A stretch of DNA of 64,000 nucleotides from Aquificota bacterium (GTDB lineage: Bacteria; Thermosulfidibacterota; Thermosulfidibacteria; Thermosulfidibacterales; B14-G1), in contig WFSL01000027.1 of NCBI GenBank assembly GCA_015486015.1, forward strand, positions 1-64,000. The letters run 5' to 3'. This document shows, piece by piece, positions 1 through 6,543 of the stretch. Each line of letters begins with the position of its first letter. Position 1 is the stretch's first letter. Made by a program: the position numbers and the translations under genes. The notes beneath the pieces were generated by a model. It searched no databases and was not told where the DNA came from. It saw nothing but the letters and a program-made list of their open reading frames with translations.

Positions 1-808
1 CCCCCTCCACAGGGGCCCTACCTTGAGATTGAATCAAGGGGATCTCTGGTGAAAACGGGACCTTTCCCACCACCTCTATGCCTTTAGATTCACACCATTC
101 CTCCATCTCTCTCCCCTTGTCAGGATTTATATCGAACTGGTTTATGCACACCTGCACCTTCGCATCGAAGTAGCTTGCAAGCTTTATCACCCTCCTTAGA
201 TCGTGCTGCCCTGAGGGGGTGGGTTCCGTCACCACCAGAACTTGATCCACCCCGGTCATGGAAGAGATCACCGGACAGCCTATGCCCGGGGGGCCATCTA
301 TGAGGATGAGGGAGTAGCCTTCTTCATTAGCCAATGCCTTGGCCCGATTCCTAATTACTGTCACCAGTTTCCCAGAGTTCTCCCGGCCAGGGTACAAGCG
401 CGCATGGGTCATGGGGCCACACCTGGCGCGAGAGAGAAACCAGACCCCTGCCTCTTCTTCCTGCAAGCTGATGGCATCTTCTGGACATGCAAAGTAACAT
501 AGGGCGCACCCCTCACAGGCCAATGGGTCCACCTCGTAGTCAGCAGTTATAGCACCAAAGCGGCACACCTCGTGGCATACGCCGCAACCATTGCATTTCT
601 CATGATCTATCCTGGCCACCTTGCCCCCCATGAATCTCTGGGCCTCCACCACCTGGGGCTTGAGGATAATATGAAGATCGGGGGCGTCTACATCGGCATC
701 CACCACCACTTTGGGGGGATCCAGGAGCGCAAAGGAAGAGACAAGGGTGGTCTTCCCCGTCCCACCCTTCCCACTCACCACCAGGATCTCCCTAAGGCCC
801 TTATTCAC
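1..808 (-). CDS. MinD-type P-loop ATPase with inserted 2x[4Fe-4S] ferredoxin domain (C-terminus cut by window edge)
   Basis: Reading leftwards from a GTG at 808, the frame stays open to base 1 (269 codons), so the C-terminus is missing. The protein opens with a deviant Walker A motif (VVSGKGGTGKTT). Two four-cysteine ferredoxin clusters follow (CNGCGVCHEVC, then CEGCALCYFAC), and then the ATPase resumes with ILIDGPPGIGCP and VLVVTEPTPSGQHD. This is the family of MinD-superfamily ATPases with a ferredoxin insert, usually encoded in pairs beside NifX/NifB-like proteins and thought to act in Fe-S cluster or redox handling. Its start overlaps the stop of the preceding paralogue by 4 bp (GTGA), implying translational coupling. 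The substrate is unknown. Confidence 0.9.
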   Translation of the reverse strand, partial: MNKGLREILVVSGKGGTGKTTLVSSFALLDPPKVVVDADVDAPDLHIILKPQVVEAQRFMGGKVARIDHEKCNGCGVCHEVCRFGAITADYEVDPLACEGCALCYFACPEDAISLQEEEAGVWFLSRARCGPMTHARLYPGRENSGKLVTVIRNRAKALANEEGYSLILIDGPPGIGCPVISSMTGVDQVLVVTEPTPSGQHDLRRVIKLASYFDAKVQVCINQFDINPDKGREMEEWCESKGIEVVGKVPFSPEIPLIQSQGRAPVEG

Positions 809-1653
809 GGCCGTCTCCCATTGCGGGTAGCCTCTAAGGCCCCCAAGAGCTCCAGAAAGCCCTCGCAGATGGTGGGCTCAGCCTCCACCAAGGGAATCCC
901 GAGGGAATACGCCCGAGCCCATTCCTGGTTGTAAGGTAGGGAGAATAACAACGGTATCCCCTTGTCTCTCAGGTGCACTCTCAGCCTGTCATCTCCCAAA
1001 CCTGCCTTATTCTCCACCACCCCAAAGGGAACAGAAAGCTCCATCAGATACTCCTCTACGAGGAGATAATCCTGATAGCCAAATGGGGTGGACTCTGCCA
1101 CCACCAGGCAAAAATCCGAGCCCCTCAGCGTCTCCACAAAGGGGCAGGACACCCCAGGAGGGGCATCCAGGATAACCAAAGGGGCATCCTGAGGGATGTG
1201 GGCCTTCACCTGGCGGATCAAAGGTGGAGCCATAGGCTCTCCTACATTGAGGCGCCCTGCCAGATAACTGACTTCATCCCGCTTTCCCCCCTGGATGACC
1301 CCTATGGACCTGGCGGTCTCGGATATCGCCCCCTGTGGACATACAAAGGTGCAAGTACCACAACCATGACACATCTTATCAAACACCAATACCTTATGAG
1401 GTAACACCATAATGGCATGGAACTGGCAAGCCTCAGAACAGGCCTTACAAAAGTTGCATCGTCCCTCATCCACCACGGGGTAGGGCAGGGTGGCCTCTTC
1501 CTCCCATTCCACATGGGGATGGAGAAGGAGGGCCCCGTTAGGCTCTTCCACATCGCAATCTACGTAGAGGGCCTCTCCCGCCGCCAAGGCGAGGCTCACT
1601 GCCACGCTCGTCTTACCTGCTCCACCCTTGCCACTGGCTACAGTGATCCTCAC
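805..1653 (-). CDS. MinD-type P-loop ATPase with inserted ferredoxin domain
   Basis: A 282-residue paralogue of the next gene. It has a deviant Walker A (VASGKGGAGKTS, residues about 5-16), then two ferredoxin-type cysteine clusters (CNFCKACSEAC and CHGCGTCTFVC, about residues 66-108), then ILDAPPGVSCP and the conserved VVAESTPFGYQD. Known members bind ATP and two [4Fe-4S] clusters; the two adjacent genes may form a heterodimer, as other MinD proteins dimerise. The start overlaps the NifX-like gene by 4 bp (ATGA) and the stop overlaps the next ATPase start, so all three are co-translated. No membrane-targeting helix is evident. Confidence 0.92.
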   Translation of the reverse strand: MRITVASGKGGAGKTSVAVSLALAAGEALYVDCDVEEPNGALLLHPHVEWEEEATLPYPVVDEGRCNFCKACSEACQFHAIMVLPHKVLVFDKMCHGCGTCTFVCPQGAISETARSIGVIQGGKRDEVSYLAGRLNVGEPMAPPLIRQVKAHIPQDAPLVILDAPPGVSCPFVETLRGSDFCLVVAESTPFGYQDYLLVEEYLMELSVPFGVVENKAGLGDDRLRVHLRDKGIPLLFSLPYNQEWARAYSLGIPLVEAEPTICEGFLELLGALEATRNGRRP

Positions 1654-2201
1654 TTTTTCTCCAACTCCTTGAGCCTCTTGGTAATATACTCTAATCTACC
1701 CTTTATAAACTCCATCTCCTCCCGCAAAGCGGCAACCTCATCTTCCCTACTGGCAAAGCCCGGGGAAGAGGGCATGGCGCCAAAACCTCCCATGCGGCCC
1801 ATTCCCCTGCCTATGCCTCGACCCATGCCCACCCCCATACCCATGTGGGGAGGTGCTGTAGCCTGAGCGGGAGAGGGCTTGATCCTGCCTTCCTTGAAAG
1901 CCTCCACAGCCTCCCTCACCGTCATCCCCTGGATCCCCAAGATCACCTGGATGCCCGCTGCTGCCAATGCAGATGCAGCATTAGGACCCAACTGCCCCGT
2001 GATTACCGCCTGGACCCCCTCATTGGCCACCATCTGGGCCGACTGGATACCAGCACCACCCAAAGCAGCCACATTTGGGTTAGCCACGGAGTCTGCCCTC
2101 ATGGTATCCGTATCCACAAATACAAAGTAGGCTGCCCGCCCAAAGCGGGGATCTACCTGAGCATCAAGCCCAGACGCAACTGCAGTCACACACACCTTCA
2201 T
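1650..2201 (-). CDS. NifX/NifB-type dinitrogenase iron-molybdenum cofactor-binding family protein with Gly/Met-rich linker and coiled-coil tail
   Basis: 183 residues. Residues 1-105 are a NifX-like domain (start MKVCVTAVASGLDAQVDPRF, later VITGQLGPNAASAL and a GIQGMTVREAV segment). Residues 117-145 are a low-complexity Gly/Met/Arg stretch, and 152-183 form a charged amphipathic helix likely to be a coiled coil. Small NifX-like proteins can bind iron-molybdenum cofactor or other metal clusters, but no nif structural genes are visible here, so a nitrogenase role is not supported. The gene lies 3 bp after the MerR-NifX gene and overlaps the next ATPase by 4 bp. Confidence 0.88.
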   Translation of the reverse strand: MKVCVTAVASGLDAQVDPRFGRAAYFVFVDTDTMRADSVANPNVAALGGAGIQSAQMVANEGVQAVITGQLGPNAASALAAAGIQVILGIQGMTVREAVEAFKEGRIKPSPAQATAPPHMGMGVGMGRGIGRGMGRMGGFGAMPSSPGFASREDEVAALREEMEFIKGRLEYITKRLKELEKK

Positions 2202-2204
2202 GAT

Positions 2205-2915
2205 TTACCCCTCCTCTTCGCCTATTGCTTGTGGCTCCTTGTCCTTGCATTCCCTCTCGTGAGGTTGGCAGAGGCTCTCTTCGAACTCGTGCCCCGCTAA
2301 CAGTGCCTGTAGGACATCCAAAACCCGTCCCTGGGCACCGGTGATGGGTTCCATTCCCCACTGACGAAGACGCTCTGCTGCCCGAACCCCCATGCCACCA
2401 GACACGATCACGTCTGCACCCTCATCCTTGACAAACCCTGGAACCAAACCAGGGCCATGGATCTGGGCGAAGGGGTTCCCTTTCACCTCCACAGAAACCA
2501 CCTCACCATCAGGGTCGAGCTCAACAAAGGTGAAGAAAGGGGCCATCCTGAAATGGGCAGAAACCTGGGCATCAAGCCCCCCCTCGTCATCCGTGGCGAA
2601 GGCAATCCTCATCTTCCACCTCCCATGCGCCCTATACCAGGGGCATTTTTCCCTCTTCATAACAGGGCATCTCAAGACCCGCCAGCAGGGAGCCAGGGAC
2701 AAGAGGCGCTTGATGCCGGCGATATTCACTCCCTCCTCCAAAAGGGCCCTGATGCAACGGAGGCGATGGAGGTCACTCTCAGAATAATAGCGTTTCCCCC
2801 CAATCCGCCGGGGGGAGATGAGCCCCTCCTCTTCATAAATCCGCAGGGTCCTGGGATGAACGCCCAGTATCCCACTTACCACTCCTATGGGATAAACAGG
2901 CCTATCCTCCATCAT
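2205..2915 (-). CDS. MerR-family HTH regulator fused to a NifX-like cofactor-binding domain
   Basis: 236 residues in two parts. Residues 6-75 are a MerR winged-helix domain (YPIGVVSGILGVHPRTLRIY, then the GLISPRR wing). A cysteine motif follows: C77-W, C83-P, C91-P-W-Y. From M102 (MRIAFATDDEGGLDAQVSAH) a complete NifX-like domain runs to about residue 205, followed by a charged tail. A ribosome binding site lies just before M102, so the second domain may also be made alone. It heads the operon of NifX and MinD-type genes. I infer that it senses a metal cofactor or Fe-S state and regulates its own operon. A recent loss of a stop codon between two genes is the alternative reading. Confidence 0.85.
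   Translation of the reverse strand: MMEDRPVYPIGVVSGILGVHPRTLRIYEEEGLISPRRIGGKRYYSESDLHRLRCIRALLEEGVNIAGIKRLLSLAPCWRVLRCPVMKREKCPWYRAHGRWKMRIAFATDDEGGLDAQVSAHFRMAPFFTFVELDPDGEVVSVEVKGNPFAQIHGPGLVPGFVKDEGADVIVSGGMGVRAAERLRQWGMEPITGAQGRVLDVLQALLAGHEFEESLCQPHERECKDKEPQAIGEEEG
2610..2624 (-). promoter_or_regulatory. Internal ribosome binding site and ATG inside the MerR-NifX gene
   Basis: On the minus strand GGGAGGTGGAAG directly precedes an in-frame ATG (2612-2610), with 6 nt between GGAGG and ATG. This ATG is where standalone NifX proteins normally begin (MRIAFATDD). The site could yield a free NifX domain as well as the fusion, or be a relic of two separate genes. Confidence 0.55.
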
Positions 2916-2935: not shown

Positions 2936-2964
2936 TAAATATGACCTAACAATTCAATTGTCAA
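2936..2964 (-). promoter_or_regulatory. Predicted sigma-70 promoter of the MerR-NifX operon
   Basis: Minus strand: -35 TTGACA (2964-2959), 17-bp spacer, -10 TATTTA (2941-2936). The dyad ACAATT-n-AATTGT overlaps the end of the -35 box and the spacer. MerR-family regulators typically bind a dyad in this position, so autoregulation is likely. The operator role is inferred. Confidence 0.5.
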
Positions 2965-2972
2965 GAACTGTA

Positions 2973-3105
2973 GGGGTCAGGTCTTGAATTTGGCAATTTC
3001 TTTGGGCCTTGACAAGTATACCTCTAAGGGATCAAGGGGTTAAGGATTGAGGGATTAGGGAATAACCAGGTTAACCAGACATGTCAAATGTTGAGACCTG
3101 ACACC
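2973..3105. repeat. 133-bp mini-element bounded by imperfect inverted repeats related to the RAYT element ends
   Basis: The left end reads GGGGTCAGGTCTTGAATTTG. The right end (3081-3105) is a 25-bp stretch identical to 17692-17716, the right end of the intact RAYT element. The two ends are inverted imperfect copies of one another, and the interior has no coding capacity. This looks like a non-autonomous (MITE or REP-type) derivative mobilised by the same transposase. Confidence 0.65.
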
Positions 3106-3172
3106 TTCAGGTTGACATGCACCTTCAGGTTGACACATGACACCTTCAGGTTGACACACCTTCAGGTTGACA
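3102..3172. repeat. Four short direct repeats of CACCTTCAGGTTGACA
   Basis: Exact 16-bp copies lie at 3102-3117, 3120-3135, 3141-3156 and 3157-3172, with 2, 5 and 0 bp between them. They directly follow the mini-element and lie 87 bp before the Wzz-like gene. Near copy 1, ACCTGA-CACCT-TCAGGT can form a small hairpin. They may be amplified element termini or an array of regulator sites. The spacers are far too short for CRISPR. Confidence 0.8.
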
Positions 3173-3258: not shown

Positions 3259-5058
3259 GTGAGCAATGGGAAGATCCCTGTAGAGGACTTTGAAGAGGTT
3301 GATCTCCGTAGATACATCCAGGTATTAGCTCGGCGATGGAAGATGATCCTCGGAATCACCTGTGCGGCAGCCCTTGCTGCTTTTCTAATCAGCTTGGCAC
3401 TTCCCCCGGTTTACGAGGCAAAGGCCCTATTGGCAATTGTAAGGGCCAAGTCTGAGATAACCTTTGAACCCAAATTCAAGACCCTCGGAGAGGAAGATCT
3501 GGCAGTTCTCGGTGCGCGGTTGTGGGGTAAATGGTATGAAGCACGTCGCAAGGCCTTGGCCGAGATGGTTCGAAACCCTGCCATAGCAAAGGAGGTAGTG
3601 AATAGGCTGAAGGGCGTATTTGGAAAAGAGGAGGTCGATCCTTCCTATCTGGTGAAAAGGGTGAAAGGGGAGGCTGGGATGGGAGGGGGAGACGTAATTG
3701 CCGTGTGCGTTAGGTGGGATGATCCGCGAGAAGCGGCCTTGATAGCGAATACATGGGCGCAGCTATATGAGGAGCATGTCAATAGACTTTATGCCACTAC
3801 TTCAACTGCTTACTGTAAGTCCATAGAAGATGAGCTGAAGAAGGCCGAAAGGCGTTACTTAACTGCAGAGGAAGCACTTGATAGTTTCATTAGGCAAAAC
3901 AGGATAAGGGAGATAAAGCGCTTAATAGCTGAAAAACAAGAGGTTATCTCTGCTTTGCAGCGTGGGAGAAAGGTGGCTGTCAATGCGCTGGTTAACGAGA
4001 AGATTAAGGCCCATCAGCGGTTAATCTCTGCATACTTGTCAGCTCAAGCAAAGAATAGGCTCTTAGCTTTTGAAAAAGAACAGGAGGGACTTAGGAACTT
4101 AGCTTCTGCTTATTTAGATGCCCGTAATAATTCCCAAATAAAAGTTTTTAAAAAGCAACTCGAGAGCCAGTTGCTATCCCTTGGTTCATACTACAAAACC
4201 AGGCAAAAGTTGCAGCTCCTTTTAGAGGATGCAAGGGTGCTTCGCGATCAAATATCAAAAGGAGGTGAAGGAGCTGCCATCACTAATGGTCTTGCTGTCA
4301 TATTGCTGAAAGCTCAAGTTTTTGCATCCTCGGCAAATTTGCCTGGGGCACTTGATATCGAAATACGAGAATTACCAAAGCTCAGCGTTGCAGAGCTTGT
4401 TAGAGACCTTGATACGCTTACTGTAGTTATTAAAGAGCGCTTAAAAAATCTCGATAAGAAGATCAGTATGCTATCCCGCCAAATAGTTTCAGGAAACTCA
4501 CTTGAGTTCTTTTATGGTGGCCAAGAAAAATTCATAGCTGCTTTCCAAAGGATTTATCCGAAGCTCTTCCAGGTTGGAGGACTTGTTTCTTTAAGTAGCA
4601 AAGTTGCCCACGAGAATGAGTTGCAGCGTAGAACTGAATTTATGGCTGGAAGATTGATGAAGCTGGAAGGCTTAGAGAACATACCTAAGGAGGAATTTTC
4701 TGGACCTTTAAAAGAGGCTATAGAAAGATTAGAAAAGGAGATAAATGATTTAGAAGCGAGATTGGAACAAGAAAAGGCCCATAAAAAAGAATTGGTTGAG
4801 GCTCGTGACCTTGCCTACAATACCTATGTCACCCTAAAGCGGAAGGCGGCGGAAGTCCGTCTGAGCGTGCGAGTGCCGGGAACTGAAGTCCGCTTTGCCG
4901 TTCCGGCTGGCATTTTGCCTCACCCCGTTTCTCCGCGTAGGCTTTTTAACACGGTCATAGCTGGGGTACTGGGCCTGATGGTGGCTGTGCTTGTGGCCTT
5001 CTTGATCGAGTTTTTGCAAGCACCGCGGACTGAGGAAGAAAAGAAAGAAGAAACTTAG
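3259..5058 (+). CDS. Wzz-like polysaccharide chain-length / co-polymerase protein
   Basis: 599 residues from a GTG start preceded by GGGGAGG at 6 nt. The N-terminal region (EEVDLRRYIQVLARRWKMIL) leads into TM helix 1 at about 29-50 (ITCAAALAAFLISLALPPVY). A very long helical periplasmic region follows (about 150-530). Next comes the proline-rich PAGILPHPVSPRR stretch and TM helix 2 (about 565-588), ending in a short charged cytoplasmic tail. This is the polysaccharide co-polymerase topology without a fused tyrosine kinase. No glycosyltransferase, flippase or export gene is adjacent, so it is an orphan here. The middle of the gene is visibly more AT-rich than its neighbours, suggesting transfer. 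Confidence 0.85.
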   Translation: MSNGKIPVEDFEEVDLRRYIQVLARRWKMILGITCAAALAAFLISLALPPVYEAKALLAIVRAKSEITFEPKFKTLGEEDLAVLGARLWGKWYEARRKALAEMVRNPAIAKEVVNRLKGVFGKEEVDPSYLVKRVKGEAGMGGGDVIAVCVRWDDPREAALIANTWAQLYEEHVNRLYATTSTAYCKSIEDELKKAERRYLTAEEALDSFIRQNRIREIKRLIAEKQEVISALQRGRKVAVNALVNEKIKAHQRLISAYLSAQAKNRLLAFEKEQEGLRNLASAYLDARNNSQIKVFKKQLESQLLSLGSYYKTRQKLQLLLEDARVLRDQISKGGEGAAITNGLAVILLKAQVFASSANLPGALDIEIRELPKLSVAELVRDLDTLTVVIKERLKNLDKKISMLSRQIVSGNSLEFFYGGQEKFIAAFQRIYPKLFQVGGLVSLSSKVAHENELQRRTEFMAGRLMKLEGLENIPKEEFSGPLKEAIERLEKEINDLEARLEQEKAHKKELVEARDLAYNTYVTLKRKAAEVRLSVRVPGTEVRFAVPAGILPHPVSPRRLFNTVIAGVLGLMVAVLVAFLIEFLQAPRTEEEKKEET

Positions 5059-5364: not shown

Positions 5365-6543
5365 ATGTCTTTCTGGGATGTGATCGTAGTGGGTGCAGGG
5401 CCTGTGGGGGCCTATCTCTCCCGGTGTCTGACGGAAAGGGGATATAGGGTCCTTCTTTTGGACAAGAAGGGGAAAACGGGGCGCCGGATCTGTGCCGGTG
5501 TGATAGGGGCTGAAGCCTTTCAGCGTTTCCCCCTGCCCATGGAGACCGTTCTTTCTTCCGTGAGGTCTATCACCATGGTATCTCCCTCGGGCAAGAGACT
5601 GAGGCACACCTCCAGGGCCCCAATGGCCCATGTGGTGGACAGGGTGGCCTTTGACAGGACCATCCTCAAGGAGGCTGTGGGCAGGGGAGTGGAGTTTTAC
5701 AACCTCTCCAAGGTGGTTGGGGTGGAGAGGGACCCGTCGGGCATTAAGGTGGTGTGCAGAAATGGAAGGGATAATGAAGGAGTTCAGCATTTCAAGGGGG
5801 CAATGGCCGTCTTTGCTACGGGCTATAACCCTGGGCTCTTGGATGCCTTGGGACTTCCGGGCTATCCTGGGGCTGTGGTGGGGATCCAATCTGAGGCTTT
5901 GATGGAAGGGGTAGAGGAGATAGAGGTCTACCTGGGCCAGAGGGTTGCCCCGGGTGGATTTGCCTGGTTGGTGCCTATGGGAGATGGGAGGGTGAGGATG
6001 GGCCTTGTGGCGCAGAGGGATGCTAAGGATTGGCTCTTCAGGTTCATCTCCTCTCCAGTGGTCTCTTCCCGTCTTGTGGATGAGCCAGGTCCCATCAGGG
6101 CTGCATGGATACCAATGGGGCCTATATCCAGAACCTTTGGGGACAGGTTCTTGGTGGTGGGTGAGGCTGCAGGACAGGTGAAGACCACCACATACGGCGG
6201 GATTTACTATGGGTTGTTGTGTGCCGAAAAGGCCCTGAACACCATAGATAAGGCCTTCGAAAAGGGGGATTGGGGGGAGGGGCTCCTCTCCTTTTACCAT
6301 AGGGCCTGGTGGAGGCTCCTGGGAGATGAGATGGAGGCGGGTGCCCATTTGAGGGACATGGTGGTGGCCATGGAAGACACGGATCTGGACGATCTCTTTG
6401 TCCTTTTGGGTAGTGATGGTATTTTGCCCAGGCTTCGGGCTACGGTGAGGTTCGATTGGCACAGGGAGAGCATTCGGTTACTCATTGGTCGGGTGCTAAA
6501 ATACGCCTTTGAGACTCAGGGGCGTGTGGCGCTTAGAGAATGA
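5365..6543 (+). CDS. FAD-dependent oxidoreductase, geranylgeranyl reductase family
   Basis: 392 residues. The N-terminal dinucleotide fold (VIVVGAGPVGAYLSRCLTERG) is followed by LLLDKKGKTGRRICAGVIG, where the family binds FAD. Further on are FATGYNPGL, and DRFLVVGEAAGQVKTTTYGGIYYGL, the second FAD-binding motif of the geranylgeranyl reductase / flavin monooxygenase-like family. Members reduce isoprenoid double bonds or act as electron-transfer flavoproteins; the substrate cannot be read from sequence. There is no clear strong ribosome binding site at the ATG (TACTAAATTGCC precedes it). The next gene is 95 bp downstream in the same direction. Confidence 0.8.
   Translation: MSFWDVIVVGAGPVGAYLSRCLTERGYRVLLLDKKGKTGRRICAGVIGAEAFQRFPLPMETVLSSVRSITMVSPSGKRLRHTSRAPMAHVVDRVAFDRTILKEAVGRGVEFYNLSKVVGVERDPSGIKVVCRNGRDNEGVQHFKGAMAVFATGYNPGLLDALGLPGYPGAVVGIQSEALMEGVEEIEVYLGQRVAPGGFAWLVPMGDGRVRMGLVAQRDAKDWLFRFISSPVVSSRLVDEPGPIRAAWIPMGPISRTFGDRFLVVGEAAGQVKTTTYGGIYYGLLCAEKALNTIDKAFEKGDWGEGLLSFYHRAWWRLLGDEMEAGAHLRDMVVAMEDTDLDDLFVLLGSDGILPRLRATVRFDWHRESIRLLIGRVLKYAFETQGRVALRE

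Follow-up and report, generated by a model that had tools for sequence, protein, structure and literature searches.

A MerR helix-turn-helix and a NifX domain in one reading frame

The window analysed here, a 64,000-nucleotide stretch of Aquificota bacterium DNA (contig WFSL01000027.1), carries near its left end a minus-strand reading frame of 236 codons in which a MerR helix-turn-helix (HTH), a linker with three cysteines and a NifX domain follow one another without interruption (Table 1). Translation may begin at the ATG at 2915 or at the ATG at 2912, the latter being better spaced from an AGGAG at 2923–2919. An earlier note on this DNA, made from the sequence without database searches, had read both domains in a single frame. 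This reading is borne out: MerR_1 and Nitro_FeMo-Co (PF02579; residues 115–206, 4.8e-18) both pass their Pfam cut-offs, and C77, C83 and C91 lie in the linker where they had been placed. A structure model of the fusion, predicted from four input sequences (mean pLDDT 71.1, pTM 0.52), contains both domains. Using Foldseek, the NifX half matches PH0822 (2yx6; 7.1e-12, TMt 0.88), the orange protein (ORP; 2wfb, 1.3e-5) and NifX in complex with NifEN (9ian, 2.8e-5). Where a MerR-family dimerisation helix would be expected, the model shows two short helices (residues 65–74 and 77–81) and then residues 82–101 of the linker, where pLDDT is below 50, as it also is in the tail (residues 212–236).

Table 1. 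Features of the MerR-NifX locus (positions in the window)
Feature	Position	Strand	Remarks
MerR-NifX fusion gene, 236 aa	2205..2915	-	six full-length copies in the phylum
MerR winged helix-turn-helix, residues 8–73	2697..2894	-	Pfam MerR_1 (PF13411) 6e-21; Foldseek GlnR 4r4e 1.7e-4
Cysteine linker, residues 77–101 (C77, C83, C91)	2613..2687	-	shortened cysteine domain of stand-alone MerR-Cys proteins, from sequence comparison
NifX domain and cysteine/histidine tail, residues 102–236	2208..2612	-	Pfam core residues 115–206
Internal Shine-Dalgarno GGGAGG, codons Gly98-Arg99	2619..2624	-	identical in 7/7 genomes
Internal ATG, Met102 (codon 102), proposed start of free NifX	2610..2612	-	7/7 genomes
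Second NifX (Nitro_FeMo-Co + DUF5320), next gene of the operon	1650..2201	-	
MinD-type ATPase with 4Fe-4S ferredoxin insert	805..1653	-	
Second MinD-ferredoxin ATPase, truncated where the window and contig begin	2..808	-	
Putative operator CTTGACAATTGAATTGTTAGG, an imperfect inverted repeat that shares positions with the -35 box	2945..2965	-	
Putative promoter: TTGACA 2964–2959, 17-bp spacer, TATTTA 2941–2936	2936..2964	-	

The domains of the three downstream genes on the same strand agree with the earlier proposal that the fusion heads an operon of NifX and MinD-ferredoxin ATPases. In a related locus (L001), the second MinD-ferredoxin gene is followed by a gene for an Mrp/NUBPL-type ATPase. 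Four exact tandem copies of ACCTTCAGGTTGACA occupy positions 3103–3172, between the operon promoter and a gene at 3259; the window holds no further exact copy.

Conservation of the fusion

The complete fusion is present in six of the nine genomes that represent the window's phylum in the search set (G000, G001, G002, G003, G005 and G006). In a seventh, G007, a contig end falls inside the linker and the remaining frame runs open through C83, C91 and the NifX domain; we counted this genome only where its sequence exists. The fusion is absent from G004 (73% complete) and G008 (90%), both of which match only through an hspR-like gene. The earlier note had named a stop codon in the linker of relatives, or a sequencing error, as grounds for giving up the fusion. 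None of the seven genomes has such a stop, and the complete gene occurs in six separate assemblies. C83 and C91 are conserved in 7/7 sequences and C77 in 6/6. A frame of 370 aa at L003, which looked like a larger triple fusion in G006, proved to be an assembly gap, a run of Ns (5582–5591) bridging two genes.

In the NifX tree, the seven fused domains group as a single clade (support 100/99) that excludes the second NifX of their operons as well as the remaining homologues. The HTH tree, built on 78 columns, leaves a single origin of the fusion undecided, with G005 falling apart from the rest; the NifX tree settles the matter. In both halves pN is low and pS near saturation: between the window and G005, pN is 0.27 for the HTH and 0.25 for NifX, with pS of 0.76 and 0.77. 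This purifying divergence fits a functional HTH and a functional NifX domain within one gene. At the level of sequence, the comparison confirms that the MerR-NifX fusion is real, under purifying selection and kept across this small, uncultured phylum.

Distribution of HTH-NifX architectures

Searches with the fusion profile over six overlapping sets of 386, 17, 74, 82, 394 and 385 genomes (1,338 genome searches, a sample out of 97,973 species, with thresholds from 1e-15 to 1e-28 and, for many genomes, just seven first-look candidates scored) found the HTH and NifX in one frame in six genomes, all from the window's phylum. A profile scan of genome contigs returned loci of G002, G003 and G006 (L001–L003) and two HTH-only matches. 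Among 1114 open reading frames of at least 80 aa in the fetched loci, 39 match the HTH-linker profile, 66 the NifX profile and six both; these six again belong to the window's phylum. The earlier note had called the architecture unfamiliar, which stands for MerR-NifX within the sampled genomes. It does not hold for the joining of an HTH to NifX in general, since G029 encodes a DUF134-NifX fusion of 224 aa (L120, 323–997) that passes both Pfam cut-offs. On contig C9 of G000, DUF134 at 316–567 lies near a NifX-type match at 1498–1698 within a 403-aa frame, which may be an MrpORP. The literature searches brought up nothing pertinent on a MerR-NifX or NifX-HTH protein and nothing useful on internal starts in fused regulators; the portions of PMC2725144 and PMC5701242 that were available describe no MerR-NifX fusion.

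Regulators also occur beside unfused NifX genes. Ten proteins picked by eye from the 1.5-kb flanks of NifX-homologue loci, a chosen set rather than a count, include ArsR (L049, L054, L064), PadR (L053, L056, L068), FUR (L028, L070) and DtxR-type (L061) regulators, the tenth being at L091. NifX genes thus often adjoin a regulator of some family.

Relation of the linker to stand-alone MerR proteins

A group of stand-alone MerR proteins combines an HspR-like HTH with a cysteine domain (CW-x4-C-...-C-x-Y-...-PCW). We found no family name for these proteins and call them MerR-Cys; they score up to 124 bits against the profile of the fused HTH and linker, versus 66–84 bits for the hspR-like sequences. 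The fusion keeps the first three cysteines of this domain; the PCW and the later cysteines are gone, and NifX starts directly after the PCW position. As judged by this alignment, the linker is a shortened version of the cysteine domain of a widespread stand-alone MerR family, and its cysteine motif is no novelty of the fusion.

Some of the stand-alone proteins lie beside genes like those of the fusion operon. In G181, a single strand carries MerR-Cys, two MinD-ferredoxin genes and NifX in succession, and in G395 and G396, from the same family, MinD-ferredoxin or NifX genes come after MerR-Cys. We also inspected 20 loci from relatives of G268, taking up to ~4 kb on each side and less at contig ends (at L155 the MerR gene was missed by the ORF filter). 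None of the 20 has NifX or MinD-ferredoxin genes near MerR-Cys; the family is therefore broader than NifX control, and we rejected a general linkage of MerR-Cys to NifX. In these relatives MerR-Cys is a widespread protein of ~150 aa (L093 and L144–L163), several times adjoining a penicillin-binding-protein-like gene, a family assignment confirmed for L093. At L097 (4378–8289) and L096 (4649–8075), stand-alone MerR-Cys genes adjoin DsrE-like, DsrC-like and pyridine nucleotide-disulphide oxidoreductase genes, which may indicate regulation tied to sulfur.

The fused NifX domain has an altered motif

In all seven sequences the fused NifX domain reads HFRxA at the position of the usual HFGxC. Most of the listed first-type NifX homologues have HFGRC or HFGHC and some have HFGxA; HFR occurs in no other row; this comparison dropped NifX rows shorter than 85 aa, below 35 bits or containing X, and the Pfam model does not require HFGxC. 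In the available part of a study of MrpORP, the CXHFGHCE motif of its cluster-binding Di-Nase domain is discussed as a conserved one (PMC6345978). All fusions with a tail present retain a C-terminal LC..HE..C stretch, with some variation in G005. Because HFRxA replaces HFGxC, the fused domain may bind another ligand than the usual NifX one, or none through that site. The substitution counts against reading the fused NifX as a plain carrier.

A proposed internal start for free NifX

Within the linker, GGGAGG precedes an in-frame ATG by 6 nt. The earlier note placed this ATG where stand-alone NifX proteins begin; phmmer indeed pairs residue 102 of the fusion with residue 1 of PH0822 (2yx6). We asked how often such an arrangement occurs by chance. 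In 55 ORFs of the window, GGAGG stands 5–9 nt before 15 of the 485 in-frame internal ATGs, five of these being GGGAGG. In a single genome the arrangement is therefore weak evidence. It is more than chance because it is kept, with invariant codons, in seven of seven genomes, all of which read GGG AGG TGG/TTG AAG/AGA ATG.

Codon choice elsewhere in the gene provides the comparison. Among 92 columns with an invariant residue (excluding those with fewer than six sequences or no codon choice), seven keep a single codon, and the only neighbouring pair among them is Gly98-Arg99. A single codon is kept in one of 19 invariant glycine columns and one of eight invariant arginine columns. From each gene's own codon use, the probability of GGG AGG throughout is 3.6e-6 if the genomes are taken as independent, which overstates the case, and 5.9e-4 with four representatives. 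Synonymous sites in the linker are near saturation (pS 0.71–1.0). RNA folding around the internal start in four genomes revealed no special structure (z 0.14, -1.47, 0.47 and 0.35). The codon conservation suggests that selection acts on an internal start that would make free NifX at Met102. It also lends support to the earlier proposal that the gene gives two products, and we consider it very likely that the start is used in cells.

An inverted repeat at the putative promoter

Upstream of all six intact fusions we find CTTGACAATTNNATT, which comprises the TTGACA box and the beginning of an inverted repeat. The -35 box is thus present in each, and the -10 region is less conserved in G005 and G006. 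The repeat is perfect in G002 (CTTGACAAT-TCG-ATTGTCAAG); in the other five promoters the right arm is imperfect, matching at 7 or 8 of 9 positions, and the left arm is in part plain -35 box. We searched the nine genomes of the phylum for CTTGACAATNNNATTGTNA with up to two mismatches, where a reversed-pattern control gave 0–4 hits per genome and strand. It occurs upstream of all six fusions without mismatch, except for one mismatch in G005. In these six genomes the fusion promoter is the only place within one mismatch, the remaining hits having two mismatches or being the same palindrome on the opposite strand. With a near-exact repeat only at its own promoter, the gene looks like a single-site autoregulator. 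In G008, which is without the fusion, two stretches around sites with one mismatch contain no NifX or MinD-ferredoxin genes that could be recognised by eye.

The same repeat, in perfect form, is found in another phylum. In G267, CTTGACAATTGTAATTGTCAAG lies between a MerR-Cys gene and divergent NifX-MinD-MinD-Mrp genes, which connects the repeat with the regulator and the operon in an unfused setting. Its symmetry is 18/18. Neither 200 shuffles nor the remaining 25 of the 26 scanned regions upstream of MerR-Cys genes gave more than 14. The spacer of the G267 repeat is one base longer than that of the fusion repeat. The divergent promoter there (L092, 1637–1797) is near-symmetric: each strand has TTGACA-N17-TAGTAT, placed about a single perfect palindrome. 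G181, G395 and G396 share CTTGACAAAAAT, with the -35, at the promoter and have no palindrome. The conserved repeat overlapping the promoter, together with the same repeat beside the unfused genes of G267, supports the reading as an autoregulator. We conclude that the full-length protein probably binds the repeat at its own promoter.

A model for regulation by a NifX fusion

Based on these observations, we favour, as fairly probable, a model in which the gene is an autoregulator of a NifX/MinD-ferredoxin/Mrp operon for metal-sulfide cofactors and gives two proteins from one frame. A dimer of full-length MerR-NifX would bind its own promoter at the inverted repeat that overlaps the -35 box. The NifX half would serve as the effector domain, answering to a metal-sulfide species handled by the operon. 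The strong internal Shine-Dalgarno would start free NifX as a second product, which could carry the same ligand or draw it off and thereby set the threshold; TipAS may play such a part next to TipAL. With regulator and NifX in one protein, the signal for regulation is coupled to the NifX fold. We give ligand sensing through the NifX half slightly less than an even chance, and the assignment of the ligand as a thiometallate or Fe-S species is weak. A further reading, to which we give somewhat less than an even chance, is that of a phylum-wide metal-sulfide-responsive transcription factor with the NifX fold itself as sensor and a built-in titration by the free domain, made from an internal ribosome site, through competition for ligand or heterodimers.

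Several other explanations were weighed. An assembly or sequencing artefact might be suspected, as every genome is a MAG or a draft, but the identical junction in seven genomes from three families, assembled independently, makes this negligible. A second view is that only the full-length protein is made and that GGGAGG is kept for another reason, as a relic of an old nifX start or an overlapping nucleic-acid signal. The background of well-placed GGAGG before other ATGs and the fact that the Shine-Dalgarno encodes a conserved Gly-Arg would both allow this, but the other 18 invariant glycine and 7 invariant arginine columns all differ in codon, and a relic should be gone by decay with synonymous sites so close to saturation. 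We regard this view as improbable.

The origin of the HTH bears on a further alternative, in which the gene is a duplicated HspR that controls stress genes and its NifX domain has no regulatory meaning. The best NCBIfam match of the HTH is HspR (NF047375), and the CTTGAC-N9-GTCAAG of the promoter has the geometry of HAIR, given as CTTGAGT-N7-ACTCAAG in the available text of PMC6102357. The score of 72.7 bits nevertheless falls short of the cut-off of 105. The window genome has its own hspR elsewhere, between dnaJ and clpB as read by eye, and in the HTH tree (where five rows are in no group) the hspR-like rows form a clade (98/94) that excludes the fusions; beyond the window genome's own gene, the label hspR is our reading and not the call of a model. 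Descent from the genome's own HspR was rejected on this separate clustering. Canonical HAIR sites in the nine genomes are not commoner than a reversed-pattern control, so the genomes' HspR cannot be judged from them, and in the six fusion genomes near-exact copies of the fusion repeat occur solely at the fusion promoter. We consider a duplicated HspR very improbable. Less remote, though still unlikely, is a regulator whose HTH and linker cysteines sense sulfide, redox state or a metal, with NifX as a passenger carrier that was joined through a lost stop codon and is mostly supplied from the internal start. Consistent with this, all three cysteines are conserved, the same spacing of cysteines recurs in stand-alone MerR-Cys proteins that have no NifX, and some of these proteins adjoin the Dsr-type and oxidoreductase genes described above. 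Against it, the fusion truncates the cysteine domain, and the NifX motif is altered as if its role had shifted.

To our knowledge, the roles and inducing signals of the widespread NifX/MinD-ferredoxin (ORP-type) operons are poorly known. The fusion offers a handle on them, through the effects of ligands on DNA binding. If the NifX fold itself is the sensor and the free domain titrates its ligand, the protein would represent a cofactor sensor of NifX type, without precedent in our searches, and the TipA design would have arisen independently a second time.

Comparison with known systems

HspR is the closest NCBIfam model and has a similar repeat geometry. The fusion differs from it in scoring under the cut-off, in falling outside its clade, in the letters of its operator and in heading a NifX/MinD rather than a chaperone operon. 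With stand-alone MerR-Cys it shares the HTH and the first three cysteines, a similar NifX/MinD-ferredoxin operon alongside in G181, G395, G396 and G267, and, in G267, the inverted repeat; the stand-alone proteins have no NifX, a longer cysteine domain and, in the 20 loci from G268 relatives, no link to NifX. DUF134-NifX proteins such as that of G029 also join an HTH-type domain to Nitro_FeMo-Co, but their HTH belongs to an unrelated family and they retain HFGHC.

The Desulfovibrio ORP operon and MrpORP, as described in the available part of PMC6345978, combine Nitro_FeMo-Co proteins with the ferredoxin-bearing Orp3/Orp4 and an Mrp ATPase, a set like that of the fusion operon. Unlike the fusion operon, a sigma54-dependent promoter is reported for that operon, and the same part of the paper describes no MerR fusion.

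The nearest parallel is TipA, a MerR-family regulator of Streptomyces. According to the text available in PMC7762955, two start codons give TipAL and the predominant TipAS, and expression is autoregulated, as proposed for the fusion. In both systems a MerR HTH is joined to a ligand-binding domain, putatively so for NifX, and an in-frame internal start precedes the effector domain; TipAS is made alone from its second start, and in the fusion the two products are inferred from GGGAGG-N6-ATG. The effector is NifX rather than the antibiotic-binding domain of TipAS, for which a Pfam search of the fusion gave no match; the fusion may therefore work like TipA but is no TipA. If its internal start is used, it would be a two-product regulator of the TipA kind, kept across a phylum and equipped with another effector domain.
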